Assembly (NCBI GenBank): GCA_022710975.1
Contig: JAKLGA010000010.1
Span: 124,001-188,000 of the forward strand
DNA length: 64,000 nucleotides
Direction of reading: 5' to 3'
From: Myxococcota bacterium
GTDB lineage: Bacteria; Myxococcota; B64-G9
The notes below the pieces were generated by a model. That model searched no databases and was not told where the DNA came from. It worked only from the letters and a program-made list of their open reading frames with translations. The position numbers and the translations under genes were made by a program. Below are positions 3,379 to 51,283 of this stretch, piece after piece (positions within the stretch are counted from its first letter, which is position 1; the number at the start of each line of letters is the position of its first letter).

Positions 3379-5181
3379 TCAGGGAGGCGACCCGCCGCCC
3401 AGCACCCGCCCCAGGGCCTGGCCGAGTTCGCGGATGGAGATCGGCTTGAACAGCACCACGGCCTCGCCGTCCGCCTGCGCCTGCTCGAGCAGCGGGTCGT
3501 GGCTGCCGCTGACGAGCACCACCGGCACCCGCGGCGCGATCTCGCGCAGGGCGCGCAGGCACTCGAGGCCGCTGAGGTGCGGCAGGCGCTGGTCGAGGAT
3601 CACGGCGTCGATGCGCTCCTTGCCGGCGCGGAAGAGCTCGAGCGCCTCGAGCGGGGAGGAGGCGGGGACCACCGTGTAGCCGAGGTGCTCCAGCATGGAG
3701 CCCTCCACCTGCAGGACGGTCTCCTCGTCGTCCACGAGCAGGACGCAGCCCGAGCCCCGCACGGGGCCGGCGGGCGTGGGCGGCTCGGCCCCGGCGCGCG
3801 GGGCCTGGGCCAGCGGGAAGAACAGGTGGAAGGCGGTGCCCCGGCCGGGGGCGGTCTCCAGCTGCAGCACGCCTCCACAGCGATCGATCACCCGACGCAC
3901 CATGGCCAGGCCCATGCCGGTGCCATTCGCCTTGGTGGTCACGAAGGGCTCGAACACCTTCGGCAGGAGCTCCGGCGGGATGCCGCAGCCGGTGTCGCGC
4001 ACCGTGACGCGCGCGAACTCGGTGCCCGGCGCGCTGCCCGGGGGGCCACCCGGCGAGCCACCCACCTCCCGCGAGGTCTCGAAGCTGAGCACGCCGCCGT
4101 CGGGCATGGCGTCGCGGGCGTTGAGGGTGAGGTTCACCAGGGCCTCGTGGAGCTCGCCCGGCTCGCCCTCGAGGAACAGCGCCTCCGGGTGGAGGCAGCG
4201 CTCCAGGCGCACCCTGCCGCCCAGCGGGCGAGCGAGCAAGGCGAGCACCTCCTCGATCAGCCGGTGGAGATCGATCGGGCCGCTGCGGTGTCGGTCTGGC
4301 CGGGCGTAGTCCAGCAGCTGCCGGGTGAGCTCGGAGCCTCGCCGGGCCGCCTGCCCGATCACCTCGACCGCGCGGGCCTCGTCGCTGTCGGGGCGCAGGC
4401 CGGACTTCAGCAGCTCGGTGTGTCCGAGGATGCCGGACAGGAGGTTGTTGAAGTCATGCGCGATGCCGCCCGCGAGCTGTCCCATGACCCTGAGCTTCTC
4501 GTCCTGCAGCAGGCGCGCCTGCTGCTCCTGGATGACCCGGGTGCGCGCCTGGACCTCCTCCTCGAGGTGCAGCTTGTGCTGCTCCAGCTCGCGCCGGGAG
4601 GCGGAGAGCTGCCGCAGGTTGCGCTCCCCGAGCGCGTTGACCGCCACCGTCAACACCCACATGCCGATCAGCGGGGTGGCGAAGCCCGTCAACACGTCGA
4701 TCTGCTCGAGGGGGACCCTCCACAGCAGGTGGCCGAACTGGCCGGCCGTCGTGAGGCTCGCGTACAGCAGGTAGGGGCGCAGATCGAGCACGGAGGCGGC
4801 CAGGGCGAGGATGCTGCAGTGGTAGATGACGCCCGTCGACAGGACCTGCAGCCCGGGCAGGCGCAGGTAGTAGAGGTTGGGGATCAGCACGACCTGGAGG
4901 GAGATCAGGTACAGCCAGCGGGCGAGCTGCGGCCTGCGCCGCTGCAGCAGCCACAGCCCGGGGTGCAGGAGCACCCACGCGGCGTAGGTGAGCCTCACGG
5001 TGAGCGCGCCCTCGGGCCTGCACAGCGCCAGGATCGAGCCGGACACGCCGTTCAGGCCCGCCAGGCAGGTGAAGATCAGGGAGATCTTCACCAGCGCGGA
5101 GCGCACCTCCTCGACGTTGGCGACGGTGAACCACCGGCGCCCCTGGACGACGAGGTCGGCGAACCTGGTCAGGGCGTTCAC
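3379..5181 (-). CDS. membrane-bound hybrid sensor histidine kinase with C-terminal receiver domain
   Basis: This 600-residue protein has, in order, about six membrane helices (residues 30-185), a coiled-coil-like linker (190-228), a HisKA domain with phosphoacceptor His242 in GGIAHDFNN, a HATPase_c domain (N box around 350-356 NLTLNARDA, G1 DTGCGIP near 396, G2 GTGMGLAMV near 420), and a receiver domain from 478 with acidic pocket D484/D485, phosphoacceptor D530 and Lys579. No output or DNA-binding domain is attached and no response regulator gene is adjacent, so it is an orphan hybrid kinase whose partner must lie elsewhere. The start is GTG with GGAGGGG upstream. The sensory signal is unknown; the N-terminal membrane region has no extracytoplasmic domain, suggesting sensing within the membrane. 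Confidence 0.93.
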   Translation of the reverse strand: MNALTRFADLVVQGRRWFTVANVEEVRSALVKISLIFTCLAGLNGVSGSILALCRPEGALTVRLTYAAWVLLHPGLWLLQRRRPQLARWLYLISLQVVLIPNLYYLRLPGLQVLSTGVIYHCSILALAASVLDLRPYLLYASLTTAGQFGHLLWRVPLEQIDVLTGFATPLIGMWVLTVAVNALGERNLRQLSASRRELEQHKLHLEEEVQARTRVIQEQQARLLQDEKLRVMGQLAGGIAHDFNNLLSGILGHTELLKSGLRPDSDEARAVEVIGQAARRGSELTRQLLDYARPDRHRSGPIDLHRLIEEVLALLARPLGGRVRLERCLHPEALFLEGEPGELHEALVNLTLNARDAMPDGGVLSFETSREVGGSPGGPPGSAPGTEFARVTVRDTGCGIPPELLPKVFEPFVTTKANGTGMGLAMVRRVIDRCGGVLQLETAPGRGTAFHLFFPLAQAPRAGAEPPTPAGPVRGSGCVLLVDDEETVLQVEGSMLEHLGYTVVPASSPLEALELFRAGKERIDAVILDQRLPHLSGLECLRALREIAPRVPVVLVSGSHDPLLEQAQADGEAVVLFKPISIRELGQALGRVLGGGSPP

Positions 5182-5231
5182 CTGGCGACCCCTCCACGTG
5201 CAGACCGCAGCTGCGGGCTTGATCGGGAGAC

Positions 5232-5260
5232 AAGCTAGCGTAAAAACGGCGGCGGGTCCA
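5232..5260 (-). promoter_or_regulatory. candidate sigma-70-type promoter of the histidine kinase gene
   Basis: Minus-strand TGGACC (5255-5260), a 17-bp spacer and TAGCTT (5232-5237) lie in the 96-bp gap before the kinase start at 5181. The block is nearly identical to the one upstream of the glycyl radical enzyme. Confidence 0.5.
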
Positions 5261-5277
5261 GCGGGGCCGGGTGGCTA

Positions 5278-6411
5278 CTACGCCAGGCCCTTCTCGCGGA
5301 GCAGGCGGTCGTAGACCGCCACCGTGGCCTCGGTGGGCGAGCGCCCGAAGCGCGCCACCACGTGGGCCCGGCCGCGCGCGCCCATGGCCTGGCGCGCCCC
5401 GGGGCCGAGCGCCAGCATGCGCTCGATGGCGTCCGCCAGCGGTCCGGGCCAGAAGGTGGGCACCTCGAAGCCGGTCTCGCCGTCGACGATGGTCTGGTCG
5501 AGGTTGGTGGCGCGGGACAGGATGGCCGGCAGCCCCGTGGCGCAGCCCTCCAGGGCGGCGTTGGACAGCCCCTCGTAGAGCGACGGCAGGGTGAGCACGT
5601 CCGCCGCCCAGTACAGGCTGCGGATGTCTTTCTGCGCGTCCAGGAAGCGCACCTGGTCCCGCAGCCCGGGCCGCGCGCGCAGCCAGTCCACCAGCCGGGC
5701 GGTGCCGGGATCCCGGCGGCGGCCGGCCAGCAGGAAGACCGCCTGCGGCGCCAGGCGCCGCTGGTGCGCCAGGCTTGACAGGGACCAGAGCAGGCCGAGC
5801 TGGTGCTTCTGCAGGCTGATCCGGCCGGGCAGCAGGAAGGCGACCTGCTGCTCGCCGAGCTGCCAGGCGGCCCGGGCGGCCTGGCGCTCCTCGGGCGTGG
5901 GCGGCCGGAAGAACTCGGTGTCCAGGATGTTGTAGATGACCTGGACCTTCTCCGGGCGCACCCGGGCCCAGGTGACCAGCTCGGCCTTGACCGACTCCGA
6001 GTTGCTCAGGATGAGGTCGGCGCGGTCCGAGAGGTGGCGCTCCAAGGCCATCAGGTGCGGCTGCATGAACCGGTTGCGGGAGGAGGTGATGACGATCGGC
6101 ACCCCGGCCCGGCGGGCCGTCAGCCGGCCCCAGAAGTTGGCCTTGTCCCGGTAGCAGTGCAGGATGTGCGGCCGCTCCTCGCGCAGGATGCGGGTCAGCT
6201 CCTCGACCCCCGCCAGGTTCATGCGCTTGTGCCCGAGCACGTGCCTGGGTTGCCCCGGGATCAGCTCGTCCTGGTAGAACACCAGATCGTGGTACAGGCA
6301 CAGCACGGGCTCGAAACGAGCCGGCAGGGAGCGGATGAGCCTGAGGAGCTGCTGCTCCGTGCCGCCCTGCTGCAGGTTGGGGATGAAGTAGAAGATCTTG
6401 ATCCTGTCCAT
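5278..6411 (-). CDS. glycosyltransferase, GT4-like (group 1) family
   Basis: The 377-residue protein has the GT-B layout: an N-terminal domain opening with FYFIPNLQQGGTEQQLLRLI (donor/acceptor loop GGTE) and a C-terminal glycosyltransferase 1 domain. The latter has the E-x7-E-type region LPSLYEGLSNAALEGCATGLPAILS followed by DGETGFEV, as in nucleotide-sugar-dependent retaining enzymes. The longer open frame adds 15 residues, but the ATG at 6411 is preferred because GGAGCG sits just upstream and the conserved strand begins there. It is probably a cytoplasmic, membrane-associated enzyme of capsule, exopolysaccharide or LPS synthesis; donor and acceptor cannot be read. No other glycan genes adjoin it, so it stands alone between the kinase and the divergent fur operon. 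Confidence 0.9.
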   Translation of the reverse strand: MDRIKIFYFIPNLQQGGTEQQLLRLIRSLPARFEPVLCLYHDLVFYQDELIPGQPRHVLGHKRMNLAGVEELTRILREERPHILHCYRDKANFWGRLTARRAGVPIVITSSRNRFMQPHLMALERHLSDRADLILSNSESVKAELVTWARVRPEKVQVIYNILDTEFFRPPTPEERQAARAAWQLGEQQVAFLLPGRISLQKHQLGLLWSLSSLAHQRRLAPQAVFLLAGRRRDPGTARLVDWLRARPGLRDQVRFLDAQKDIRSLYWAADVLTLPSLYEGLSNAALEGCATGLPAILSRATNLDQTIVDGETGFEVPTFWPGPLADAIERMLALGPGARQAMGARGRAHVVARFGRSPTEATVAVYDRLLREKGLA

Positions 6412-6427
6412 GCACGCTCCGAACGGA

Positions 6428-6456
6428 AATATTCCATCGCCCCGCCGCCTCGTCAA
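6428..6456 (-). promoter_or_regulatory. candidate promoter of the glycosyltransferase gene
   Basis: Minus-strand TTGACG (6451-6456), 17-bp spacer and AATATT (6428-6433) lie in the AT-richer divergent region, about 17 bp before the ATG at 6411. Both boxes fit the sigma-70 consensus well for so GC-rich a genome. Confidence 0.55.
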
Positions 6457-6469
6457 CTCCGTAATTCAC

Positions 6470-6498
6470 TTGCGCCGTGAGCGGCGGGCTGGTATGCG
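6470..6498 (+). promoter_or_regulatory. candidate promoter of the fur-transporter-methylase operon
   Basis: TTGCGC (6470-6475), a 17-bp spacer and TATGCG (6493-6498) face the fur-like gene. The predicted transcript start would fall about 3 nt before the ATG at 6508, giving an almost leaderless mRNA; no good Shine-Dalgarno is visible, which agrees. Confidence 0.4.
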
Positions 6499-6507
6499 AT
6501 CCGCAAG

Positions 6508-6972
6508 ATGCAACACAGTTGCACAAAGAACGGAGCCCGCGGAGCCGGCCCGGACCCCTCCGCGGAGGCCGCGCTGGCCGCGGCGGGGCTGCGGCGGACC
6601 GGGCCGCGCCTGGCGGTGCTGCGGGCGCTGTTTCGGGCCCGGCGGCCGCTCGCCCACGCGGAGCTGGCCGCCCGCGCGGCGCTCGGCGGGCTCGACCGGG
6701 TGACGATCTACCGGGTGCTGGCCGCGCTGCGCCGGGCCGGGCTGGTGCACGAGGTGCGCGGCGTGGACGGCACGCTGCGCTTCGGCTGGCACCCCGGGCA
6801 GGACGCCCACTGCCCGGGCGACCACGCCCACTTCCTGTGCCTGCGCTGCGGGGGCATGCAGTGCCTCTCGGAGCAACCCATGCCCCGGGTGGCGGTCCCG
6901 CGGGGCGCGCGGGTCCAGGGCAAGCAGCTGCTGGCCTACGGCACCTGCGCGAGGTGCCTGCCCCATGGCTGA
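6508..6972 (+). CDS. Fur-family metal-dependent transcriptional regulator
   Basis: The 154-residue protein has an N-terminal winged helix (about 20-90, including LRRTGPRLAVLRAL and the recognition-helix region LDRVTIYRVLAAL) and a C-terminal dimerisation domain. The latter has HAHFLCLRCG (H106, H108, C111, C114) and a second CxxC pair at C147/C150, the structural zinc site of Fur, Zur and PerR proteins. Which metal or signal it senses cannot be told from the sequence. It is the first gene of a tight operon: the next start codon overlaps its stop by 8 bp (ATGGCTGA), so it probably controls the downstream oxyanion transporter and exported methylase-like protein. A 15-bp inverted repeat at its own start codon suggests autoregulation. 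Confidence 0.92.
   Translation: MQHSCTKNGARGAGPDPSAEAALAAAGLRRTGPRLAVLRALFRARRPLAHAELAARAALGGLDRVTIYRVLAALRRAGLVHEVRGVDGTLRFGWHPGQDAHCPGDHAHFLCLRCGGMQCLSEQPMPRVAVPRGARVQGKQLLAYGTCARCLPHG
6509..6523. promoter_or_regulatory. inverted repeat at the fur start codon, candidate autoregulatory operator
   Basis: TGCAAC-ACA-GTTGCA is a perfect 6-bp-arm inverted repeat with a 3-bp centre. It lies 10 bp downstream of the candidate -10 box and overlaps codons 1-6 of the Fur-family gene, so a bound repressor would block transcription start. Assignment to this regulator is inferred from position and from the size of Fur-family operators. Confidence 0.45.
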
Positions 6973-8224
6973 GCTCCGCCGCGGCTGGCTGGCCGGGTTT
7001 CGTTTCGACCGCCTGGAGCTGTCGGGCTCGCTGGGCGATCTTGGCACCTTCCTGCCGCTGGTGGTGGCCATGGTGCTCGCCAGCCGCCTCGATCTGGGGG
7101 TGGTGCTGGTGTGCGCCGGGCTGATGAACGTGGCCACCGGCTTGCTCTTCCGCCAGCCCGTCCCGGTCCAGCCCATGAAGGCCATCGCGGCCGTGGCCAT
7201 CACCGAGGGGCTCACCCAGGGGGAGCTGGTGGCCTCGGGCCTGGCGCTGGGCGGGATCATGCTGGCGCTGTCGCTGACCGGGGCCATCGGGCTGCTGACC
7301 CGCTGGGTGCCGCGGGCCGTGGTGCGGGGCATCCAGCTCGGGGTCGGGCTCAAGCTGGCCGTGCAGGGCTTCGCCTCCCTCGGGAAGCTGCCCTGGCTGG
7401 GCGCGGACTGCCTGCTGCTCGGGGTGGGGGCGGCCGCGCTGCTGCTGCTGCTGTGGGCCTGGCGGAAGCCGGCGGTGCTGTGGCTCTTCCTGGGCGGGCT
7501 CGCCTACCTGGCCCTGGTGCGGCCCGAGGCCTACCAGGGCCTGACGCCCGGCCTGCCGGCCTTCGCCCTGCACTGGCCCGCGGGCGCGGACTGGCTGGGT
7601 GGGCTGTGGAAGGCCGGCCTGCCGCAGGTCCCGCTGACCGTGCTGAACTCCGTGCTGGCGGTGTGCGCCCTGTCGGCCGATTACTTCCCCGGCCAGGGCA
7701 TCTCCCCCCGGCGCATGGCGGCCAGCGTGGGGCTGATGAACCTCCTGTGCGCACCGCTGGGCGGCATCCCCATGTGCCACGGCTCGGGCGGGCTGGCGGC
7801 CCAGGTGCTGTTCGGCGCCCGCACCGGCGGCAGCGTGGTCATGCTGGGTCTCGGCAAGGCGCTGGCCGGGCTCGCCTTCGGCGGCGCGCTCCTGAGCCTG
7901 CTGCAGTCCTACCCCTCGGCCATCCTGGGGGTGCTGCTGGTGTTCGCCGGGCTGGAGCTGGCGCGGGCGGCGCGGGAATCGCTGACCGGCCCGGGGCTGG
8001 TGGTGGTGCTGGCCACCGCGGCCGGCATCCTGGGGCTGGACACCGCCGCGGGCTTCCTGATCGGCTGCGCGCTGTCCGCGCTGGGCTGGGCCGCGCGGCG
8101 GCTCACGAGAGATCGACAACCCAAGGAGGAGATCCATGCGGAAGAAGCTGGTGGCCTGGGCGCTCGTGCTGCTGAGCCTGGCGGCGGGCCAGGCCGCGCT
8201 GGCGGCGGGCAAGCAGCAGGGTAA
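6965..8224 (+). CDS. MOT1-family (sulfate/molybdate permease-like) membrane transporter
   Basis: This 419-residue integral membrane protein has about ten predicted helices. The N-terminal LSGSLGDLGTFLPLVVAM and the QPVPVQPMKAIAA motif match the MFS_MOT1 family, whose characterised members carry molybdate and which resembles the SulP sulfate permeases; a second GGSVVMLGLGKALAG segment repeats the pattern in the C-terminal half. The start overlaps the fur-like gene by 8 bp. The reading frame continues 89 bp into the next gene; the last 30 or so residues (Gly/Ala-rich after RDRQPKEE) look like read-through and not a conserved part. Substrate oxyanion is a family-based inference. Grouping with a Fur-type regulator suggests metal-responsive control. 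Confidence 0.88.
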   Translation: MAELRRGWLAGFRFDRLELSGSLGDLGTFLPLVVAMVLASRLDLGVVLVCAGLMNVATGLLFRQPVPVQPMKAIAAVAITEGLTQGELVASGLALGGIMLALSLTGAIGLLTRWVPRAVVRGIQLGVGLKLAVQGFASLGKLPWLGADCLLLGVGAAALLLLLWAWRKPAVLWLFLGGLAYLALVRPEAYQGLTPGLPAFALHWPAGADWLGGLWKAGLPQVPLTVLNSVLAVCALSADYFPGQGISPRRMAASVGLMNLLCAPLGGIPMCHGSGGLAAQVLFGARTGGSVVMLGLGKALAGLAFGGALLSLLQSYPSAILGVLLVFAGLELARAARESLTGPGLVVVLATAAGILGLDTAAGFLIGCALSALGWAARRLTRDRQPKEEIHAEEAGGLGARAAEPGGGPGRAGGGQAAG

Positions 8225-9074
8225 GTTCTACGTCATCGGGATGGGCACCTCGCCCGACCTGGTCACCGTGCGCGGGCTGGAGGTGATCAAGCGGGCCGAC
8301 CTCGTCCTGCTGGAGGACAAGTCGGATCTCGAGGCCTGGGGCAAGTGGATCGGGAAGAAGCCGGTCGTCTACGCGCCTCACCTGGCGAAGGTCTTCTACG
8401 GGACCGATCCCGCCAGCCTGACGGACCCGGCCAAGCGGGCCTGGGCCGAGAAGAACGACGCCATCCGCAAGGAGCTGGCGGCGAAGGTCCAGCAGGCCGT
8501 CGTCGCCGGCAAGGTCGTGGCGTACCTGCAGTGGGGCGACGCGATGCTCTACGGCAACCTGTACCTGCTGGAGATGCTGCCGCCCGCGATCCCCACGGAG
8601 GTCGTGCCCGGGGTGGGTGCCTTCCAGGCCGCCAGCGCCGCCCTCGAGCGCAGCACGGTCTACGGCTGGGACACCAACGGGGTGATCCTGACCATGGGGG
8701 ACTGGCCCGGCCGGGCCGACACCAACGAAAAGTTGATGGCGGCCGGGACGAGCATGGTGTTCTACACCATGCACCTCGACTACCCCGCGGTCTTTGCGCA
8801 GCTCGCCAGGGCCTACCCGGCCGACACGCCCGTGGCGGTGGTGTCCTTCGCCGGGGATCCCCGGAACCAGAAGATCGAGCGCAGCACCGTGGGCAAGTTC
8901 CTGACCGAGGTGGACTGGGCCCACCTGCCAGCGGAGATGCACACCCTGTTCGTCGGCAAGTTCCTGACGGTCGGCCAGGCGCGCAAGGACGGGGTGAGCC
9001 ACGGCAAGGACTGGATCCAGCAGCAGCACGGGGACGACACGCCGCTCGGCCAGCCCACCTGCGAGCAGCCCTGA
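8136..9074 (+). CDS. tetrapyrrole methylase-fold protein with an N-terminal signal peptide
   Basis: The 312-residue protein begins with a clear signal peptide (MRKKLVAWALVLLSLAAGQA, cleavage near ALAAG) after a strong AAGGAGGAG ribosome site. A tetrapyrrole (corrin/porphyrin) methylase domain follows: VIGMGTSPDLVTVRGLEVIK (N-terminal strand and SAM/substrate loop), ADLVLLED, AYLQWGDAMLYGN (equivalent of the GDPxxYG motif), and VVPGVGAFQAASAAL. Family enzymes are cytoplasmic and need SAM, which is not expected in the periplasm, so export of an apparently intact fold is odd; binding or trafficking of a tetrapyrrole is an alternative to catalysis. It overlaps the end of the transporter gene by 89 bp and is the last gene of the fur operon. 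Function remains open. Confidence 0.82.
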   Translation: MRKKLVAWALVLLSLAAGQAALAAGKQQGKFYVIGMGTSPDLVTVRGLEVIKRADLVLLEDKSDLEAWGKWIGKKPVVYAPHLAKVFYGTDPASLTDPAKRAWAEKNDAIRKELAAKVQQAVVAGKVVAYLQWGDAMLYGNLYLLEMLPPAIPTEVVPGVGAFQAASAALERSTVYGWDTNGVILTMGDWPGRADTNEKLMAAGTSMVFYTMHLDYPAVFAQLARAYPADTPVAVVSFAGDPRNQKIERSTVGKFLTEVDWAHLPAEMHTLFVGKFLTVGQARKDGVSHGKDWIQQQHGDDTPLGQPTCEQP

Positions 9075-9112
9075 GGCGTGGCCCCGTCCCTGGGGCGCCG
9101 TGTGCTCGGTAG

Positions 9113-12024
<2,912 letters not shown>

Positions 12025-43802: not shown

Positions 43803-44786
43803 TCAACGGTAGTCCAGGGTGTGCTCGAGGGCCCTGGCCACCCGGGCGGCGTCCGGGATGTAGGCCTTCTCGCGCCCGAAGTACGGGGTCACCACGTCGA
43901 AACCACTCACCCGGGCCACCGGCGCCTCCAGCCGATCCAGGGCCCGGTCGTTGAGCCGGGCGATGATCTCCGCGGCCGGTCCGTAGCTCTGCGGCGATTC
44001 CTGGACCACCACCGCGCGGCCGGTCCGGCTCACCGAGTTCACCACGGTCTCGCCGTCGAGGGGCGCCAGGCTCAAGAGGTCCACCACCTCGGTGCGCGTC
44101 CCGCGGCGCCGGTCCACCTCCTCGGCGGCCTGGAGGCTGCGGTGCAGCATGGCCCCCCAGGTCACCAGGGTCAGGTCGCGACCCTCCTTGACCACCTGGG
44201 CCTGTCCGAGGGGCAGGGCCTCCGCCTGCTCCGGTACCTCCTCCTTGAAGGCCCGGTAGAGCGCCTTGGGCTCCATGAAAACCACGGGGTCCGGATCGCG
44301 GATGGCGGACACCAGCAGGGCCCGGGCGTTGCGCGGGCCCGAGGGTATCACCACCTTGAGCCCGGGCACGTGGGCGTAGAGCACCTCCCGGGCCTCGGAG
44401 TGGTGCTCCAGGGCGCGCACCCCGCCGCCGTACGGGAAGCGCAGCACCATCGGCACCGTGCGTTGCCCCTGGCTGCGTGCGCGCAGCCGGCTGGCGTGCC
44501 CCTCGAGCTGGGGGATGGACAGGTAGGAGAAACCGTCGAACTGCATCTCGGCCACGGGCCGCAGGCCGCCCAGGGCCATGCCGATGGAGGTGCCCACGAT
44601 GGCGGCCTCGGCCAGCGGCGTGTCGATCACCCGGGCCTCTCCGAACCTGGTGAGCAGGCCGGCCGTCACCCGGAACACGCCCTCGTCCAGGCCCACGTCC
44701 TCGCCCAGCACGACCACCGTGCCGTCTCGCTCCATCTCCTGGTGCAGCGCCAGGTTGATGGCCTGGACCATGTTCAGCTTAGCCAT
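43803..44786 (-). CDS. 2-oxoacid dehydrogenase E1 beta subunit
   Basis: The 327-residue protein has the transketolase pyrimidine-binding domain (MVQAINLALHQEMERDGTVVVLGEDVG, with the Glu that activates thiamine diphosphate in the ED motif; GVFRVTAGLLTRFGEARVIDTPLAEAAIVGTSIGMA) and the C-terminal transketolase domain (DLTLVTWGAMLHRSLQAAEEV, TEVVDLLSLAPLDGETVVNSVSRTG). It forms the alpha2beta2 E1 decarboxylase with the product of the preceding gene. The start overlaps the E1 alpha stop by 8 bp, a coupling expected for equimolar subunits. Length and motifs are normal for the family. Pyruvate versus branched-chain specificity cannot be decided. Confidence 0.94.
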   Translation of the reverse strand: MAKLNMVQAINLALHQEMERDGTVVVLGEDVGLDEGVFRVTAGLLTRFGEARVIDTPLAEAAIVGTSIGMALGGLRPVAEMQFDGFSYLSIPQLEGHASRLRARSQGQRTVPMVLRFPYGGGVRALEHHSEAREVLYAHVPGLKVVIPSGPRNARALLVSAIRDPDPVVFMEPKALYRAFKEEVPEQAEALPLGQAQVVKEGRDLTLVTWGAMLHRSLQAAEEVDRRRGTRTEVVDLLSLAPLDGETVVNSVSRTGRAVVVQESPQSYGPAAEIIARLNDRALDRLEAPVARVSGFDVVTPYFGREKAYIPDAARVARALEHTLDYR

Positions 44787-45882
44787 GCCGCGCCTCCGGG
44801 CCTCCGGCCTGGGCCAGCTCGCGCAGGAAGGTCTTGCGCTGGCCCTCGAGCTCCGGGTGGGGCGTGCCGAAGACGTGGTCGAAGGGGGCGTCGGGCTTGA
44901 AGTCGCGGCGCGCCTCGAAGCGCGCCACGGCCGCCTCGACCTCGGCCTTGACCTCGGCCTCCAGGGCCGCGTGCCCGGCCTCGTCGAGCAGGCCCTGCGC
45001 GCCCAGGTACAGGCGGAAGCGCTTGAGGGGGTCGCGCTGCCACCACTCCTGGACCTCGGCCTCGGTGCGGTACTTGGTGGGGTCGTCGGAGGTGGTGTGC
45101 ATCATCAGCCGGTAGGTGACCGCCTCGATCAGCGTGGGCCCGCCGCCCGCCTTGGCGCGCGCGAGGGCCTCCTGGGTGGCGCGGAACATGGCCAGCGCGT
45201 CGTTCCCGTCCACCTGGATCCCGGGCATGTCGTAGGCGATGGCCTTCTGCGCCAGGGTGCGCGAGTGGGTCTGCTTCCCGACCGGCAGCGAGATGGCCCA
45301 CTGGTTGTTCTGGCAGATGAACACGACCGGCGCCTGCCACACGGAGGCGAAGTTGAGCGCCTCGTGGAAGTCACCCTGCGAGGTGGCGCCGTCCCCGAAG
45401 AAGGCCACCACCGCCGAGTCCTGCTCGCCCCTCAGCTTCATGGCGTAGGCCAGCCCGACCGCGTGCAGCGTCTGCGAGCCGACGATGATGTTGACGGGCA
45501 GGGTGCGCCCCAGGCTCGGGAACACGCTGCCCTCCTCCCAGCCGTTGTGGAACCACAGGAAGTTCTCCAGCGGCATGCCGCGCGCCAGCCAGCCGCCCAG
45601 CTCGCGGAAGGCGCCCACGAACCAGTCCCGCTCGGTCATGGCGAAGGCCGGCGCGGTCGAGGCCGCCTCCTGGCCCGTGGACGGGCCGAAGGTGCCGATG
45701 CGGCCCTGGCGCTGCAGTTTGATGGCCTTCTGGTCGCCCTCCCGGGCCAGCAGCATGGCGCGGTAGAGCGCCAGCTTCTGCGCCCTGGTCAGGTCCGGTT
45801 CGAGGGACTGGTCCAGCTTGCCGTCCTGGTCCAGCACCTGCAGGCGCTGCACCTGGAAACTGGCCAGATCGCTGAGGGGCAT
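44779..45882 (-). CDS. 2-oxoacid dehydrogenase E1 alpha subunit
   Basis: The 367-residue thiamine-diphosphate enzyme subunit has the cofactor motif VAFFGDGATSQGDFHEALNFASVWQAPVVFICQNNQWAIS (GDG...NN) and the phosphorylation-loop region YRLMMHTTSDDPTKYRTEAE. The latter resembles the branched-chain/archaeal-type and Gram-positive-type E1 alpha proteins. It decarboxylates the 2-oxoacid and reductively acylates the E2 lipoyl group. The ATG at 45882 is selected over an upstream in-frame start because AAGGAG lies 7 bp before it. It is the first gene of the E1a-E1b-E2-E3-lplA operon; 85 bp separate it from the cytochrome gene upstream in the same orientation. No clear promoter was found there, so read-through from the redox operon is possible. 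Confidence 0.94.
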   Translation of the reverse strand: MPLSDLASFQVQRLQVLDQDGKLDQSLEPDLTRAQKLALYRAMLLAREGDQKAIKLQRQGRIGTFGPSTGQEAASTAPAFAMTERDWFVGAFRELGGWLARGMPLENFLWFHNGWEEGSVFPSLGRTLPVNIIVGSQTLHAVGLAYAMKLRGEQDSAVVAFFGDGATSQGDFHEALNFASVWQAPVVFICQNNQWAISLPVGKQTHSRTLAQKAIAYDMPGIQVDGNDALAMFRATQEALARAKAGGGPTLIEAVTYRLMMHTTSDDPTKYRTEAEVQEWWQRDPLKRFRLYLGAQGLLDEAGHAALEAEVKAEVEAAVARFEARRDFKPDAPFDHVFGTPHPELEGQRKTFLRELAQAGGPEARHG

Positions 45883-45967
45883 GACGGCTCCTTGTCCGAG
45901 TCGCCTGGATGTGCGGCTCACCCAGCGGTCGCGCCGCGGGTGCGCTTCCTTTCAGGCGGTACGGAGC

Positions 45968-48900
45968 TCAGCGGGCGGGGGCGGGGGGCTGGACGGGCGG
46001 GAGGGGGAGGGAGCGCGCGCGCCCCCCCACCTCGGCCGGGTCGCCGGGGTAGCCGAGCGCCGAGAAGTCCATGCGCCCGGTGCGCTCCGGGTACCTGGCC
46101 CGGGTCAGCCCGGCCGCGTCCAGGTCCTGCCGCGCGCCCGGGTGACAGCGGCCACAGGCCAGCAGCTCGGACCGATGGCAGTCGGCGCAGCCCAGGGCCT
46201 TGTCGGCGCTCTGCACCTCGTGCTCGATGCCCAGGTACAGGCGGGTCGGCGCGAAACCGAATTCACCCGAGAAGTCCTGGCCCGCCGCGGCCATGCCCTG
46301 GCGGAGAGACTCGGACCAGGTGACCGCCTCTCCGAGCCCGGGCAGCCAGCGCGGCAGGGCCAGCACCTTGCGCCCCAGATCGTAGGGCTGCTTGCCCTCG
46401 AGGATCTTGAACGGGCTGACACGCGAGGCCGGATCGGCCCTGGAGCCCATGGGCGGGTTGAGCTGGGTCTCGACCGCGGGGTCGATCTCCTGGCCCACGG
46501 CGTAGCGCTCGTGGGTCCCGTCGTACCACAGGTAGGTGGGCACGAGGTCCTGGCCCAGCACCCGCGTCCCCTCGGCCGGGCTGTGGAGGTGCGAGGCGTC
46601 CTGGGGCAGGTCGGCCGGGCGCGGCCCCCCGGCCGTGGACCAGTCCCACAGCACCACGGTCGGGGTGATGCGGGCGAAGGAGGGGATGTGGCAGCTCTCG
46701 CAGGCCACGTGGGCGACGTGGGCGTCGAGGTGGGCGCCCGTCTTGTCCACCAGGGCGTGGGGCGCCTCCCCGTGGCAGTCCAGGCAGGCCACCCGGCCCT
46801 CGTTGGGGGGGTAGGACAGGGACTGGCCGGCGATGCGGTGATCGGCGGTGCGGTGGCAGGCCTGGCAGTTGAAGCCCACCAGGCCCATGTGCACGTCGGT
46901 TTCCGCGGTCGGCGTGGCCAGCTCGGGCCCCAGGTCGCCGTGCTTCTCGTTGGGCCCGGTGCACACCTCGAAGTGGCAGCTACCGCAGTTGGCCCGGCTG
47001 GGCCGGCCGACCTTCTCCGCGATGGACACCAGGTCGAGATCCGCCGGAGGCCGGCCGCCGCGGGTGGGATCCTTGGTGTAGCGCCCGGTGGTGTCGTGGC
47101 AGACCAGGCAGTCGATGGCCTCGGCGCGGCGCGGGTCGAAGTTCGCCTCGGCCCGCCCGTAGCCTGCGTGGCAGTTGGTGCACCGCTCCATGTTCGCGCC
47201 GGCGTGGATGCGGAGGTTGTTCACCACGTTGGGCAGGCCCAGGTCCACGCGGTTCTCGTGTCCGCGGGTGGCCGGCGAGGCGCCCTCCCAGCGCCAGTGC
47301 ACGGAGTCGAGCACCTCGCGACCCGACTCCGGGTGGCACTTGAGGCAGCGGGCGGTGACCTCCTCTGGCCCCGCACCGGCGGCCAGCTCCATGTAGGCCT
47401 TGTGGTCGGGCACGTTCGGGTGGTGGCACTCGTTGCAGCCGAGCGGGGCCTTGCCGGCGCCGAGCCGCTCGTGGCAGCCCATGCACTGGCGGTGGAGGGC
47501 CGCCTTCAGCCCCGGGCGCTGGGGGGCGTCCGGCTCGTTGGGCCGGCCGTGGCAGCGCGAGCAGGCCTGGGGCGGGTTGTCGGACTGGTCCCCGTGGCAG
47601 CTCGAGCAGGCGCCGCCGATCTGCTCGCCGGCCTCTCGGTGCATGGCGAGGATATCCTGCCCCTGGCGATCGCCCTCCTGTCCGGAGTGGCGGTGGTGGC
47701 ACACCGCGCAGTTGGCGTGGCTCCAGGCGTCGTGCGCGCGGTGCGGGAAGAGCACTGGCTCGAAGTCGTCGGCGCGCTCGTTCACCACCGGGTTGTTGAG
47801 CAGGTAGAGCGTCTGGTAGCCCCTGGGGCGCTCGGGCTGGGCGATCTCGGGCACCTTCTGCCAGACCTGGGCCACCCGGGTGACGGCGATGGTCTCGTAG
47901 GTGCCGCCCTGCTCGGCGGTCTCGTGCACCAGGGTGTAGAACACCACGAAGCCGAGCAGGAAGGCGGCGGCCAGCCCGCGCACGGTCCAGTTCCAGCGCC
48001 GGGCGCTGGCCCGCTCCTCGGGATCGAGGCTCTCGGCCGGCCCGGCAGCCTCCGCCGCCCCGGGGGCCTGGCTGGCCTCCATGACGGGCAGGTAGTTGAC
48101 GAAGAAGCGATAGGTCAGCACGAGGGTGGCCACCAGCCCGGCGGTGAGCGCGAGCTCGCCGATGGACGGGTAGTACGAGGAGGTGGCGTGGGGCGGGTGG
48201 AAACCGACCACGAACACGTTCACCCGGTTGAGCACCACGCCGGCCACGATCATCAGGCTCGCGGTCATCAGCCAGCGCACGGAGCAGCGCCGCGCGGGCC
48301 GGAGCAGCATGACGAAGGGGATGACCACGCCCACCATCAGCTCGACGGCCAGCGCCACCGCGTCGCCCGGGTGCTCGCCCAGGCTCAGGCTGCCGTGGCG
48401 CACCAGCAGATCGCCGAGCTTGACCAGGCCGTACAGGCCCAGGAACCACGGGATGATGCGCGAGAGGGGCGCGAGCGCGGCCAGCTCGGCCGGGCGGCCG
48501 AAGCTGCGCGCCGACAGGATGGACTCGACCATGACCATGGGCAGGCCGACCATGAGGGCCGAGAGCAGGAAGAGCAGCGGCAGGATGGGCGTCCACCACA
48601 GCGGGCTCAGCTTGGAGGGGGCGATCAGCATGAGCGCGCCCAGCGAGGACTGGTGCATGCAGGAGAGCACCACGCCGGCCACCACGAAGACCGGCAGCGC
48701 CAGGCGCACGACCCGCTGCAGCGCGCGCGCCGGCTTGACGAACGGCCTGAGGAAACGCGCGTCCCAGCCGCGCGCCTCCCCCCGGGCGATCAGCCCCTCC
48801 AGCAGCGCGGGGGCCATCTCCACGGTCAACACGAAGAGGTAGGCCATGACGCACATGCCCACCTCGAACAGCACCGAGTTGCCCTGCCAGTTGACGATCG

Positions 48901-49255
48901 GCCGCCAGATGTTCCAGTAGCGTCCCAGGTCGAAGGTCAACCCCAGGCCGACGAAGGCGTAGCCCAACCAGGCCGTCAGGATGGCAGGGCGCAGGAGGGC
49001 GTGGTACCTCCGGCGGCCGAAGATCTCGACCAGCGCGGCGGTGGTGAAGCCGCCGGCGGCCAGCGCCACGCCGCAGGCCACGTCGATGGCGATCCAGATG
49101 CCCCAGGGGTGGGAGTCGCTCAGGTTGGTGACCGGTCCGAGGCCGGTCAGCAAGCGCGCCAGGCCGAAGGCCCAGCCCACCAGGGCGACCGCCACCAGCA
49201 GCAGGGTGCCCGGGGTGAAGAACGGCCTGGCGGCCGGAGCGTGCGCGTCCGCCAT
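45968..49255 (-). CDS. NrfD/HybB membrane quinone-reactive domain fused to a 14-heme cytochrome c
   Basis: The 1095-residue protein starts with a NrfD/HybB-type membrane domain of about ten helices (1-400; motifs SHPWGIWIAIDVACGVALAAGG, GMCVMAYLFVLTVEM, LSCMHQSSLGALMLIAP). One more helix at about 420-440 leads to a periplasmic domain with fourteen CxxCH sites between Cys516 and Cys1034. The first five (516-610) are closely spaced, like class III/c7 cytochromes. The rest, from CLKCHPE at 637, follow the octaheme tetrathionate reductase-like family (NLRIHAGANMERCTNCHAGY, NCGSCHFEVC, FNCQACHRTADHRIAGQ, CLDCHGEAPH). It probably passes electrons between menaquinol and the periplasm together with the Tat-exported ferredoxin encoded 3 bp upstream. 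Separate genes usually encode these parts. Confidence 0.93.
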   Translation of the reverse strand: MADAHAPAARPFFTPGTLLLVAVALVGWAFGLARLLTGLGPVTNLSDSHPWGIWIAIDVACGVALAAGGFTTAALVEIFGRRRYHALLRPAILTAWLGYAFVGLGLTFDLGRYWNIWRPIVNWQGNSVLFEVGMCVMAYLFVLTVEMAPALLEGLIARGEARGWDARFLRPFVKPARALQRVVRLALPVFVVAGVVLSCMHQSSLGALMLIAPSKLSPLWWTPILPLLFLLSALMVGLPMVMVESILSARSFGRPAELAALAPLSRIIPWFLGLYGLVKLGDLLVRHGSLSLGEHPGDAVALAVELMVGVVIPFVMLLRPARRCSVRWLMTASLMIVAGVVLNRVNVFVVGFHPPHATSSYYPSIGELALTAGLVATLVLTYRFFVNYLPVMEASQAPGAAEAAGPAESLDPEERASARRWNWTVRGLAAAFLLGFVVFYTLVHETAEQGGTYETIAVTRVAQVWQKVPEIAQPERPRGYQTLYLLNNPVVNERADDFEPVLFPHRAHDAWSHANCAVCHHRHSGQEGDRQGQDILAMHREAGEQIGGACSSCHGDQSDNPPQACSRCHGRPNEPDAPQRPGLKAALHRQCMGCHERLGAGKAPLGCNECHHPNVPDHKAYMELAAGAGPEEVTARCLKCHPESGREVLDSVHWRWEGASPATRGHENRVDLGLPNVVNNLRIHAGANMERCTNCHAGYGRAEANFDPRRAEAIDCLVCHDTTGRYTKDPTRGGRPPADLDLVSIAEKVGRPSRANCGSCHFEVCTGPNEKHGDLGPELATPTAETDVHMGLVGFNCQACHRTADHRIAGQSLSYPPNEGRVACLDCHGEAPHALVDKTGAHLDAHVAHVACESCHIPSFARITPTVVLWDWSTAGGPRPADLPQDASHLHSPAEGTRVLGQDLVPTYLWYDGTHERYAVGQEIDPAVETQLNPPMGSRADPASRVSPFKILEGKQPYDLGRKVLALPRWLPGLGEAVTWSESLRQGMAAAGQDFSGEFGFAPTRLYLGIEHEVQSADKALGCADCHRSELLACGRCHPGARQDLDAAGLTRARYPERTGRMDFSALGYPGDPAEVGGRARSLPLPPVQPPAPAR

Positions 49256-49258
49256 GGT

Positions 49259-50206
49259 TCACTTCCCCCCTGGATCGGGGCAGGACGGCGCCTCGACCTT
49301 GGGCGGCTGCTTGCGGTTCCGGCGGCCGGTCCACCACATCAACCCGGCCAGCCCGGCGTACACCGCGGTGGGGATGGCCGCGTAGCGGAAGATGCCGTGC
49401 TGGATGCTCTCGGTCAGCCTCGGCGGCGCCTCCTGCGGGAGCGCCTGGAACCCGAGCTCGGTCCACGGGCGGCCGCTTAGGTACAGCCAGGAGGTGCCAC
49501 CCACCTCGTGCTCGCCGTAGATGTGGTCGAGGTAACGGTCCGGTCGCCGGCGGATGCGCTTGCGGGCCAGCTCGATCAGCGCCCGGCGGTCGCCGAACAG
49601 GATGGCCTCCACCGGGCAGGCCTCGGCGCAGGCCGGGCGAGCCCCGGCGTAGCCCTCGCGGCCCCGGCAGAATTCGCACTTCCGCACCCGGGGGGCCAGC
49701 ACCTTGTGGTACTCGTAGGCCGGCACGCCGAAGGGGCAGGCCACCATGCAGTAGCGGCAGCCCAGGCAACGGCTGGCGTCGTAGATCACCGGGCCGTCCT
49801 CGGCCACGGTGAAGGCGCCCACGATGCAGGCCGAGACGCAGGCCGGGTCGATGCAGTGCATGCACTGGATCTTCGCGAAGGTCTCGGGGTGGTTGGTCTG
49901 GACGGCGGAGGGGGGACCCGCGTAGGCGTTGACCACGGTGAAGGCGGCGTGGTCCATGCGGCGGTGATCCCGGAGCACGGTGGGATCGCGGAACGAGCGG
50001 GCCGGCCGTGGCAGGTGATTCGCGCGGTTGCAGGCCTCCTCGCACTGGCGGCAGCCGATGCACAGGGTGAGGTCGACGAGGCAGCTCGCCCGCGCACCCT
50101 TGACCCGGTCCGCCAGGGGGTTCGCGGCCCGCGCCCGGCCCGGATCACCGAGCGCGGCGAGCGCCGCGAAGCCAGCACCCAGGTTGAGGAAGTCGCGCCG
50201 CTTCAT
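49259..50206 (-). CDS. Tat-exported four-cluster ferredoxin (HybA-like) with C-terminal membrane anchor
   Basis: The 315-residue protein has a twin-arginine signal (MKRRDFLNLGAGFAALAALG) and four Cys clusters: CIGCRQCEEACN, CMHCIDPACVSACIVG, CLGCRYCMVACPFG and CEFC...CAEACPVEA. These bind four 4Fe-4S clusters as in HybA, DmsB and HmcB. A C-terminal helix (IPTAVYAGLAGLMWWTG) tethers it to the membrane as in HybA. It would wire the NrfD-type quinone site to the periplasmic hemes or to an unseen catalytic subunit. It is the first gene of the two-gene operon, 3 bp before the fusion cytochrome gene, with GGAAGGAG as ribosome site and a good promoter upstream. No molybdopterin or hydrogenase subunit is encoded nearby. 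Confidence 0.94.
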   Translation of the reverse strand: MKRRDFLNLGAGFAALAALGDPGRARAANPLADRVKGARASCLVDLTLCIGCRQCEEACNRANHLPRPARSFRDPTVLRDHRRMDHAAFTVVNAYAGPPSAVQTNHPETFAKIQCMHCIDPACVSACIVGAFTVAEDGPVIYDASRCLGCRYCMVACPFGVPAYEYHKVLAPRVRKCEFCRGREGYAGARPACAEACPVEAILFGDRRALIELARKRIRRRPDRYLDHIYGEHEVGGTSWLYLSGRPWTELGFQALPQEAPPRLTESIQHGIFRYAAIPTAVYAGLAGLMWWTGRRNRKQPPKVEAPSCPDPGGK

Positions 50207-50248: not shown

Positions 50249-50277
50249 TTTATAGCTGAATCCTCTCGGTCTGCCAA
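50249..50277 (-). promoter_or_regulatory. strong candidate promoter of the ferredoxin/NrfD-multiheme operon
   Basis: Minus-strand TTGGCA (50272-50277), exactly 17 bp, then TATAAA (50249-50254), in the 93-bp gap after the Nudix gene. The leader would be about 35 nt with a GGAAGGAG ribosome site. It is one of the best consensus matches in the window. Confidence 0.65.
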
Positions 50278-50299: not shown

Positions 50300-51283
50300 T
50301 CAGGGGCTCTCGAAGCCCATGGCGGTGTGGACCATGGCCCGGTCGAAGAAGGCCACGATGCGGCGGTCGAGCTCCAGCACGCGGTAGGCCTCGAGCGGCC
50401 GGGACCAGACCCCGTGCCCCCGGGCGAATTCCCAGATCTGCTTCCGCAGGAGGGTGAGCGAGCTCAACACCTCGTGCAGGGCGAAGCCCTGGCGGCGGCG
50501 CTCCTGGCCGAGGTTCTGGTAGAAGGCCCGCACCTCGACCAGGGCGCCGGCCCCCGACAGCCAGTGGCCGAACTGGCTGAGCGCGACCACCGCCCGCGAG
50601 ACGGCCTCGTCCTCCTCGAGCTTGCGGTAGGAGGTCGTGGTCGGGTTGGAGCGCACCTCGGCCAGCCAGCCCGCGGCGATCTCCCGGACGTGCACGTCGA
50701 GCAGCCGCAGCAGGGCGTCCGACAGGAGCGCCGCCCCCTCCGAGCCTGCCTCCATGCGCTGGAAGGAGTCCTGGATGGCCCAGCTCTCCCCGTGCCGGGC
50801 GGCGTAGGCGCAGAGCGCCTTCGTGTTCGAAGGGAAGGCCAGCGGCGGGACCTGGTCCAGCGGCTGGTAGGTGGCCTCCTCGGCGTCGTCGCCCGGGCAG
50901 GCTTGGCCCGAGACCCGCTCGATCTCGAAGGAGACCACCAGCAGATCGCCGTAGAAGTCGCTGGCGTAGGAGTCCACGTCCAGCAGCCCCAGCACCCGGC
51001 CGGTGATGCCGGCCTCCTCGCGGAGCTCGCGCAGCGCCGCGGCCTCGATGGTCTCGTCGAGCTCCGCGAAACCCATGGGCAGGCACCACATGCCGCGCCT
51101 GGGCTCGCGCTTGCGGCGCACCAGCAGCACCCGCCGGGCCTCGTCCACCACCACCGCGGAGGCCACCGGCAGGGGGTTCTGGTAGAAGATCGTGTGGCAG
51201 GCCGGGCACACGTCCCGCTCCCGGTCCTCCACGACCCGGCGGGTCAGGGCCGCGCCGCACTGGTTGCAGAGCTTGGGTTTCAT
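50300..51283 (-). CDS. Nudix hydrolase with zinc ribbon, fused to an RsbRD_N-like sensor domain
   Basis: The 327-residue protein starts with a zinc ribbon (C6-x2-C9 ... CPAC, about 26-29), as in NudC-like proteins. The Nudix domain (about 35-170) has the box GFAELDETIEAAALRELREEAGI, matching Gx5Ex7REUxEExGI. A helical C-terminal domain (about 190-327, LLDVHVREIAAGWLAEVRSNPTTTSYRKLEEDE ... FGHWLSGAG ... FYQNLGQERRRQGFALHEVLSSLTLLRKQIWEF) resembles the RsbRD N-terminal domain of sensor kinases and stressosome proteins. Nudix enzymes hydrolyse nucleoside diphosphate derivatives. The fused sensor-like domain suggests ligand control or a non-catalytic signalling role. The ATG overlaps the methyltransferase stop (ATGA). 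The fusion is unusual to me. Confidence 0.82.
   Translation of the reverse strand: MKPKLCNQCGAALTRRVVEDRERDVCPACHTIFYQNPLPVASAVVVDEARRVLLVRRKREPRRGMWCLPMGFAELDETIEAAALRELREEAGITGRVLGLLDVDSYASDFYGDLLVVSFEIERVSGQACPGDDAEEATYQPLDQVPPLAFPSNTKALCAYAARHGESWAIQDSFQRMEAGSEGAALLSDALLRLLDVHVREIAAGWLAEVRSNPTTTSYRKLEEDEAVSRAVVALSQFGHWLSGAGALVEVRAFYQNLGQERRRQGFALHEVLSSLTLLRKQIWEFARGHGVWSRPLEAYRVLELDRRIVAFFDRAMVHTAMGFESP

Follow-up and report, generated by a model that had tools for sequence, protein, structure and literature searches.

A two-gene unit with a HybB-c3-OTR fusion

The 64-kb stretch of DNA analyzed here, referred to as the window, belongs to contig JAKLGA010000010.1 of a Myxococcota bacterium and carries on its minus strand two adjoining genes, one for an exported ferredoxin and one for a protein in which a HybB/NrfD domain, an extra helix, a class III cytochrome (c3) domain and a domain of the octaheme tetrathionate reductase (OTR) family follow one another in a single frame. 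The fused architecture is real and is maintained as one frame, because it recurs in a set of species and is under purifying selection, junction included. The features of this unit are as follows.

49259..50206, minus strand: coding sequence of the HybA/HmcB-like ferredoxin, 315 residues, with four [4Fe-4S] clusters, a twin-arginine (Tat) signal, a C-tail helix and Tyr152 (motifs, NCBIfam).
45968..49255, minus strand: coding sequence of the HybB-c3-OTR fusion, 1095 residues, 14 CxxCH motifs, 11 predicted transmembrane helices (open reading frame, profile and motif scans).
48071..49255, minus strand: HybB/HmcC-like NrfD domain, residues 1–395, with D58, Y99, S127, E131, Y139, E244 and R344 kept (Pfam, NCBIfam, alignment).
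47927..47983, minus strand: 11th transmembrane helix, residues 425–443, predicted to bring the chain to the periplasm, with a conserved His444 at its outer end (hydrophobicity, alignment, model).
47417..47773, minus strand: c3 domain resembling the C-terminal domain of HmcA, residues 495–613, five CxxCH (Pfam, NCBIfam, structure-profile match).
46166..47407, minus strand: OTR domain, residues 617–1030, with eight hemes and every distal His of 1SP3 retained (NCBIfam, 1SP3 alignment).
47210..47212, minus strand: Arg682, in place of OTR Cys64 (alignment).
47168..47182, minus strand: motif CTNCH of OTR heme 2, the catalytic heme, residues 692–696 (motif, alignment).
46943..46945, minus strand: Lys771, equivalent of OTR Lys153, the heme 2 ligand (1SP3 alignment).
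46142..46156, minus strand: 14th heme motif CGRCH, residues 1034–1038, without 1SP3 counterpart; His842 is its candidate distal ligand (motif, alignment).

The reading frame of the fusion starts with ATG, and its product matches the Pfam family NrfD (PF03916) with 57 bits against a cut-off of 25.8, as well as Cytochrom_CIII, Cytochrome_C7 and Cytochrome_cB. The 14 CxxCH motifs are located at residues 516, 550, 565, 591, 607, 637, 692, 716, 757, 797, 824, 852, 1023 and 1034; outside this frame, a six-frame count of the window yields only two further CxxCH. The single protein joining an NrfD/HybB part to 14 hemes, put forward in the original prediction made from the sequence alone, is thus confirmed by frame, profile score and motif count. 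An AlphaFold2 model of the whole protein is of low confidence (predicted local distance difference test score, 57; predicted TM-score, 0.42) and was used only for fold matches and helices. Structures that it matches are 1SP3, the OTR of Shewanella, and subunits C and F of alternative complex III, which are NrfD-like.

A survey of the taxonomic spread, suggested along with the original prediction, revealed that the fusion is not unique: the same HybB-c3-OTR frame is present in at least 28 species, 22 of Acidobacteriota/Myxococcota (including Holophagales, Aminicenantes and Polarisedimenticola among the Acidobacteriota) and 6 of Desulfobacterota. This count is a lower bound, obtained from one scan of GTDB species with two HybB peptide patterns and from samples of two phyla, and two further fusion loci end at contig ends. 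A hybA gene lies directly upstream of the fusion wherever the contig extends far enough. In three close species pairs, the ratio of nonsynonymous to synonymous substitution rates (dN/dS) is 0.04–0.27 in every domain and at the junction. An assembly error or frameshift, the pitfall foreseen in the original prediction, was therefore ruled out and keeps a practically negligible probability: most fused relatives are indeed metagenome-assembled genomes of mostly uncultured species, but the fusion is found on independent contigs of 28 species and its junction is under purifying selection. No description of a HybB-OTR fusion was found in the literature searched, the coverage of which excluded subscription journals.

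Relatives, origin and topology of the fusion

The window locus is the fused form of a HybA-HybB-OTR three-protein module that is already known in its unfused version, since Gallego-Parrilla et al. 2024 (PMC10924467) describe a hybA-hybB-OTR three-gene unit, the octahaem cytochrome of which belongs to the OTR family; the section describing it mentions no fusion. In seven Desulfobacterota loci (L121, L188 and L190–L194), a 13-heme c3-OTR protein has a gene of its own, which stands with hybA and hybB in the same order. The window locus shares the components and their order with these modules, its tail-anchored Tat ferredoxin being encoded directly upstream of the HybB-like protein and the OTR-family cytochrome. 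However, HybB and OTR share one frame in the window, whereas in the three-gene module they are separate and the cytochrome bears a signal peptide or anchor of its own.

The OTR tree unites the fused with the three-gene forms in a clade (94/90). Within it, the fusions of Acidobacteriota/Myxococcota group together (100/99), and those of Desulfobacterota are the sister group of the three-gene forms (97/99). The HybB tree recovers the same two fusion groups, the second being closer to HybA-HybB-13-heme modules of many phyla. Because the fused HybB and OTR domains fall in two groups, the trees indicate that the fusion state has changed at least twice, by two fusions or by one fusion and a later split, and they do not support the view that all fusions arose once. 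Many loci of the L079–L132 set, from Zixibacteria, Ignavibacteria and Planctomycetota, carry a widespread module of HybA-HybB with a separate 13-heme cytochrome of about 380 residues that has no OTR domain, and in one locus (L093, 6425–8857) HybB is fused to 11 hemes in a divergent form in which OTR similarity persists only as remnants.

CbcL of Geobacter is a precedent for the fusion of a membrane cytochrome with a multiheme c-type domain, its membrane part being of the heme-b and not the NrfD kind. The nearest comparison is not with Hmc, Qrc and alternative complex III, the complexes of separate proteins named in the original prediction, but with the three-gene module. Hmc shares with the window locus an HmcB-like ferredoxin, an HmcC-like membrane domain and an HmcA-like c3 domain; however, HmcD/E/F, the 16-heme HmcA and the cytoplasmic arm are all missing here, and the locus does not belong to Hmc. 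NrfABCD and MccACD also feed a multiheme reductase through an NrfD-type membrane subunit and a four-cluster ferredoxin (PMC8076601), although their catalytic cytochromes are unrelated or distantly related and their subunits are separate; no match to the NrfA or MccA family is found among the NCBIfam hits of the window proteins. 'Ohc' is a different complex, described with a heme-b membrane subunit (PMC4641369). The OTR of Shewanella oneidensis (SO4144, 1SP3), the eight hemes, distal His and Lys153 of which align with the fusion, is a soluble stand-alone protein without c3 or HybB domain that is supplied by STC/CymA (PMC4484225).

The membrane domain contains ten hydrophobic segments, in agreement with the roughly ten helices originally predicted, and according to the positive-inside rule its charged loops place both ends in the cytoplasm. 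An 11th helix (residues 425–443), preceded by the stretch RRWNWTVRG and seen at 412–450 in the low-confidence model, lies between the HybB part and the hemes. As c-type hemes are attached in the periplasm and the C-terminus of the HybB part is predicted to be cytoplasmic, this segment would be required to carry the hemes to the periplasm. The helix of the Desulfobacterota fusions looks like a classical, cleavable signal peptide and carries an AxA site in all five cases (e.g., KPKKLSPVVLSVLAAGLFLALAGAPDTALA-AE in L185), and in unfused forms the cytochrome bears its own signal peptide or anchor, from which we infer that the extra helix probably descends from the export signal or anchor of the cytochrome.

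Signal peptidase might accordingly cut the polyprotein after this helix, giving the usual separate subunits, as occurs in the cytochrome b/c1 precursor fbcH of Bradyrhizobium. This possibility, which concerns processing and is compatible with any function, finds its support in the Desulfobacterota fusions with their signal-like helix. It is nevertheless very improbable for the window protein, which has no AxA at the helix; within its group the site is present in only 6 of 22 proteins, and Tyr440, His444 and Ala447 are conserved in its place.

Quinone site, hemes and proposed function

The N-terminal domain is HybB/HmcC-like without being HybB proper: it scores 322 bits with the HybB profile NF008133 (cut-off 450) and 282 bits with that of HmcC (cut-off 550), and no hydrogenase gene is found among the neighbors examined. 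D58, Y99 and S127 are kept in nearly all fused relatives. Together with Tyr152 of the ferredoxin, which is conserved in 23/23, they are counterparts of QrcD D70, Y110 and S138 and of QrcC Y113, all essential in Qrc; in HybB of Escherichia coli, D58 and Y99 matter for quinone chemistry and S129 does not (PMC13059093). The equivalence of Tyr152 to QrcC Tyr113 is suggested by its location between two cluster cysteines. The HybA-like, four-cluster Tat ferredoxin of the original prediction is borne out by 16 cluster cysteines, a twin-arginine signal and a C-terminal helix. It fits the tail-anchored HybA class (PMC10924467), and its best NCBIfam matches are HmcB (317 bits, cut-off 420) and HybA (246 bits), both under cut-off.

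As predicted, the first five hemes form a c-type domain, but one nearer to the C-terminal c3 domain of HmcA, and to the nine-heme cytochrome, than to c7; the heme at 550, with His539, is missing in several relatives. The last nine were correctly assigned to OTR: eight align one-to-one with 1SP3 (match 5.8e-96) with OTR spacing and all seven distal His, one (1034) is extra, and the domain scores 411 bits with TIGR04315, the octaheme OTR family (curated cut-off 375). The catalytic heme 2 of OTR is ligated by a conserved Lys, not by His (PMC11024163). Heme 2 of the fusion is therefore not simply a heme without distal ligand, as looked for in the original prediction: Lys771 is present, but the adjacent Cys64 is Arg.

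We propose that these two genes encode a membrane-bound menaquinol:periplasmic-acceptor oxidoreductase that would reduce a small nitrogen or sulfur compound at heme 2, a scheme that we consider evenly poised between right and wrong and for which we infer direction, substrate and quinone type. Menaquinol would be oxidized at a periplasm-facing site between the HybB domain and the ferredoxin, placed there because D58, Y99, S127 and Y152 are conserved and have essential Qrc counterparts. Electrons would then cross the tail-anchored ferredoxin by way of its four [4Fe-4S] clusters to reach the c3-like hemes, and move from these through the OTR hemes to the Lys771-ligated heme 2, where the small oxidized compound would be reduced. 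The extra helix would have made the fusion possible, as it leads the chain from the C-terminus of HybB in the cytoplasm to the other side of the membrane. Nitrite, hydroxylamine and tetrathionate are substrates that the purified OTR of S. oneidensis reduces in vitro (PMC4484225), and an acidobacterial otr transcript goes up with tetrathionate (PMC8528874).

Electrons could also run in the reverse direction, from a periplasmic donor oxidized at the OTR end or via the c3 domain to the menaquinone pool, as in Qrc or as proposed for Nhc. The closeness of the c3 domain to HmcA and the nine-heme cytochrome points this way, as does the quinone-reducing direction in which HybB and Qrc operate (PMC13059093). 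However, OTR is known as a reductase only, and the module holds no hydrogenase or dehydrogenase gene in the loci examined, which makes this direction improbable.

Position 64 of 1SP3, ten residues ahead of heme 2, is Cys or selenocysteine (Sec) in 40/40 unfused OTRs examined. It is a putative active-site residue, and Cys/Sec64 is accordingly not a curated defining feature of TIGR04315. In 17 of the 31 Desulfobacterota OTR loci read (L154, L157, L158, L162, L164, L166, L170, L171, L173–L179, L181 and L182, the latter identical to L121), an in-frame TGA falls exactly at this position. Each of these, by inspection, has a 7-bp hairpin resembling a selenocysteine insertion sequence about 16–37 nt downstream (CUGGUGC-AGGU-GCACCAG or GCAACGA-GGC-UCGUUGC, with a single changed base in one case), which none of the 14 Cys homologues has, and mean folding is stronger in the TGA loci than in these homologues. 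The selB gene is present in 16/17 TGA-OTR genomes, but also in Cys-OTR genomes. In a 2026 review, TIGR04315 is counted as a selenoprotein family on the basis of GenBank annotation, with no motif given (PMC13188914). The internal TGA of L121 was rejected as a frameshift, given that it falls exactly on Cys64 and that the same arrangement recurs with the hairpin in 16 stand-alone OTRs. A redox-active, catalytic role of the residue at position 64 is thus very probable, and its loss in the window protein is notable for that reason. None of the three-gene loci read departs from Cys or Sec at this position or lacks heme 2, whereas the window protein has Arg682.

Since Cys64 is replaced by Arg, reduction of a nitrogen compound at heme 2, or pure conduction, would be likelier for the window member than S-S chemistry, and nitrite or hydroxylamine would be favored over tetrathionate as substrate. 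Cys64 is lost in 11/26 fused and 0/40 unfused OTRs, two of these 11 proteins lacking the heme-2 Lys, and heme 2 in 6/26, all within the Cys64-less set, and 0/40, respectively. In five of the six (L060, L063, L064, L068 and L070) the motif reads SSALH, FSNIH, TSLFH, SSKFH or TSGLH, so that both Cys are gone but the His remains, and the Lys ligand is retained in 4/5; in L069 the heme 2 segment is deleted. The de-cysteinated heme 2 of these five Acidobacteriota/Aminicenantes members would be compatible with a heme held non-covalently, or with another metal, in the former active site.

Alternatively, the OTR domain may no longer be catalytic and may pass the electrons of quinol on to further cytochromes in the periplasm or outer membrane. 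Besides the absence of catalytic features in fused forms only, the extra 14th heme, which would lengthen the wire, and the dN/dS of 0.083 of a heme-2-less OTR domain (one pair tested) argue for it, as does MmcA of Methanosarcina, a seven-heme OTR relative without heme 2 and its Lys that is proposed to work as a conduit and the heme-2 loss of which parallels that of the six fused relatives (PMC11024163). MmcA is, however, archaeal and Rnf-linked, the window protein retains heme 2 and Lys771, and the losses map to only two or three tree events (independent-pairs p = 1), too few to link the loss of Cys64 statistically with that of heme 2, so that pure conduction is possible but doubtful.

Several points weigh against reduction of a compound at heme 2 with menaquinol as donor. 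HmcA/NhcA-like cytochromes are usually assigned to quinone-reducing or c3-linked complexes. The replacement of Cys64 by Arg, together with the long branch of the OTR domain (1.07), means that the activity may be changed or lost in the window protein, and the six relatives without heme 2, the one tested pair of which shows purifying selection, indicate that reductase activity is dispensable for keeping the module. Moreover, the hemes of S. oneidensis OTR are at low potential, in a range like the −100 to −450 mV of MmcA (PMC11024163), so that by analogy some of these hemes would be unfavorable acceptors of electrons from menaquinol. Reductase and conduit, the two roles originally predicted (the former as a membrane-anchored S- or N-oxide reductase), both remain leading ones, because the Lys-ligated heme 2 is kept while Cys64 is Arg and relatives have lost heme 2. 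Tentatively, OTR domains that are fused to a quinone-reactive membrane domain might evolve away from the role of a tethered terminal reductase and turn into a dedicated electron conduit or new catalyst, the window protein, with Cys64 changed to Arg and heme 2 intact, being an intermediate.

The fusion holds a quinone site covalently in 1:1 geometry with a multiheme protein, be it reductase or wire, which is useful for understanding how NrfD-type complexes pass electrons to cytochromes. It also places OTR, a reductase of cryptic physiological function, in the quinone-linked respiration of uncultured Acidobacteriota and Myxococcota. The natural variants, with heme 2 present, de-cysteinated or deleted and Cys, Sec or neither at position 64, make the reductase-versus-conduit question of OTR directly testable.

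Promoter, neighboring genes and genome context

50249..50277, minus strand: predicted sigma70-like promoter TTGGCA-N17-TATAAA (pattern scan).

This is the sole match of at least 10/12 in the 64 kb, shuffles expecting 0.55. It agrees with the unusually good promoter originally noticed and, as a predicted promoter, is suggestive only. The adjoining genes encode an E1 dehydrogenase, a NUDIX protein and a methyltransferase. The two genes of the first, a 2-oxoacid dehydrogenase (E1-alpha/E1-beta, window 43803–45921), are on the minus strand, like the fusion. The ferredoxin gene had been taken to be the only other gene in the operon; however, the E1-alpha gene begins 46–86 bp downstream of the fusion in the same orientation, the minus strand between them contains no match to a terminator, and the E1 genes may share the transcript of the fusion. 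The NUDIX hydrolase (50300–51262, minus strand) has a C-terminal RsbRD_N (RsbT co-antagonist) domain, an unusual pairing.

The same genome encodes a stand-alone canonical OTR (G000:C1:541559–542770; L018/L026) near a cytochrome b561, which would be a different quinone link, and a seven-heme protein; the fusion is hence not the sole OTR of the cell. It also has selB and, on another contig (L027, G000:C11, about 4743–10000), an apparent formate dehydrogenase with a frame gap near 5411–5460 (candidate Sec codon), followed by an NrfD-like gene.

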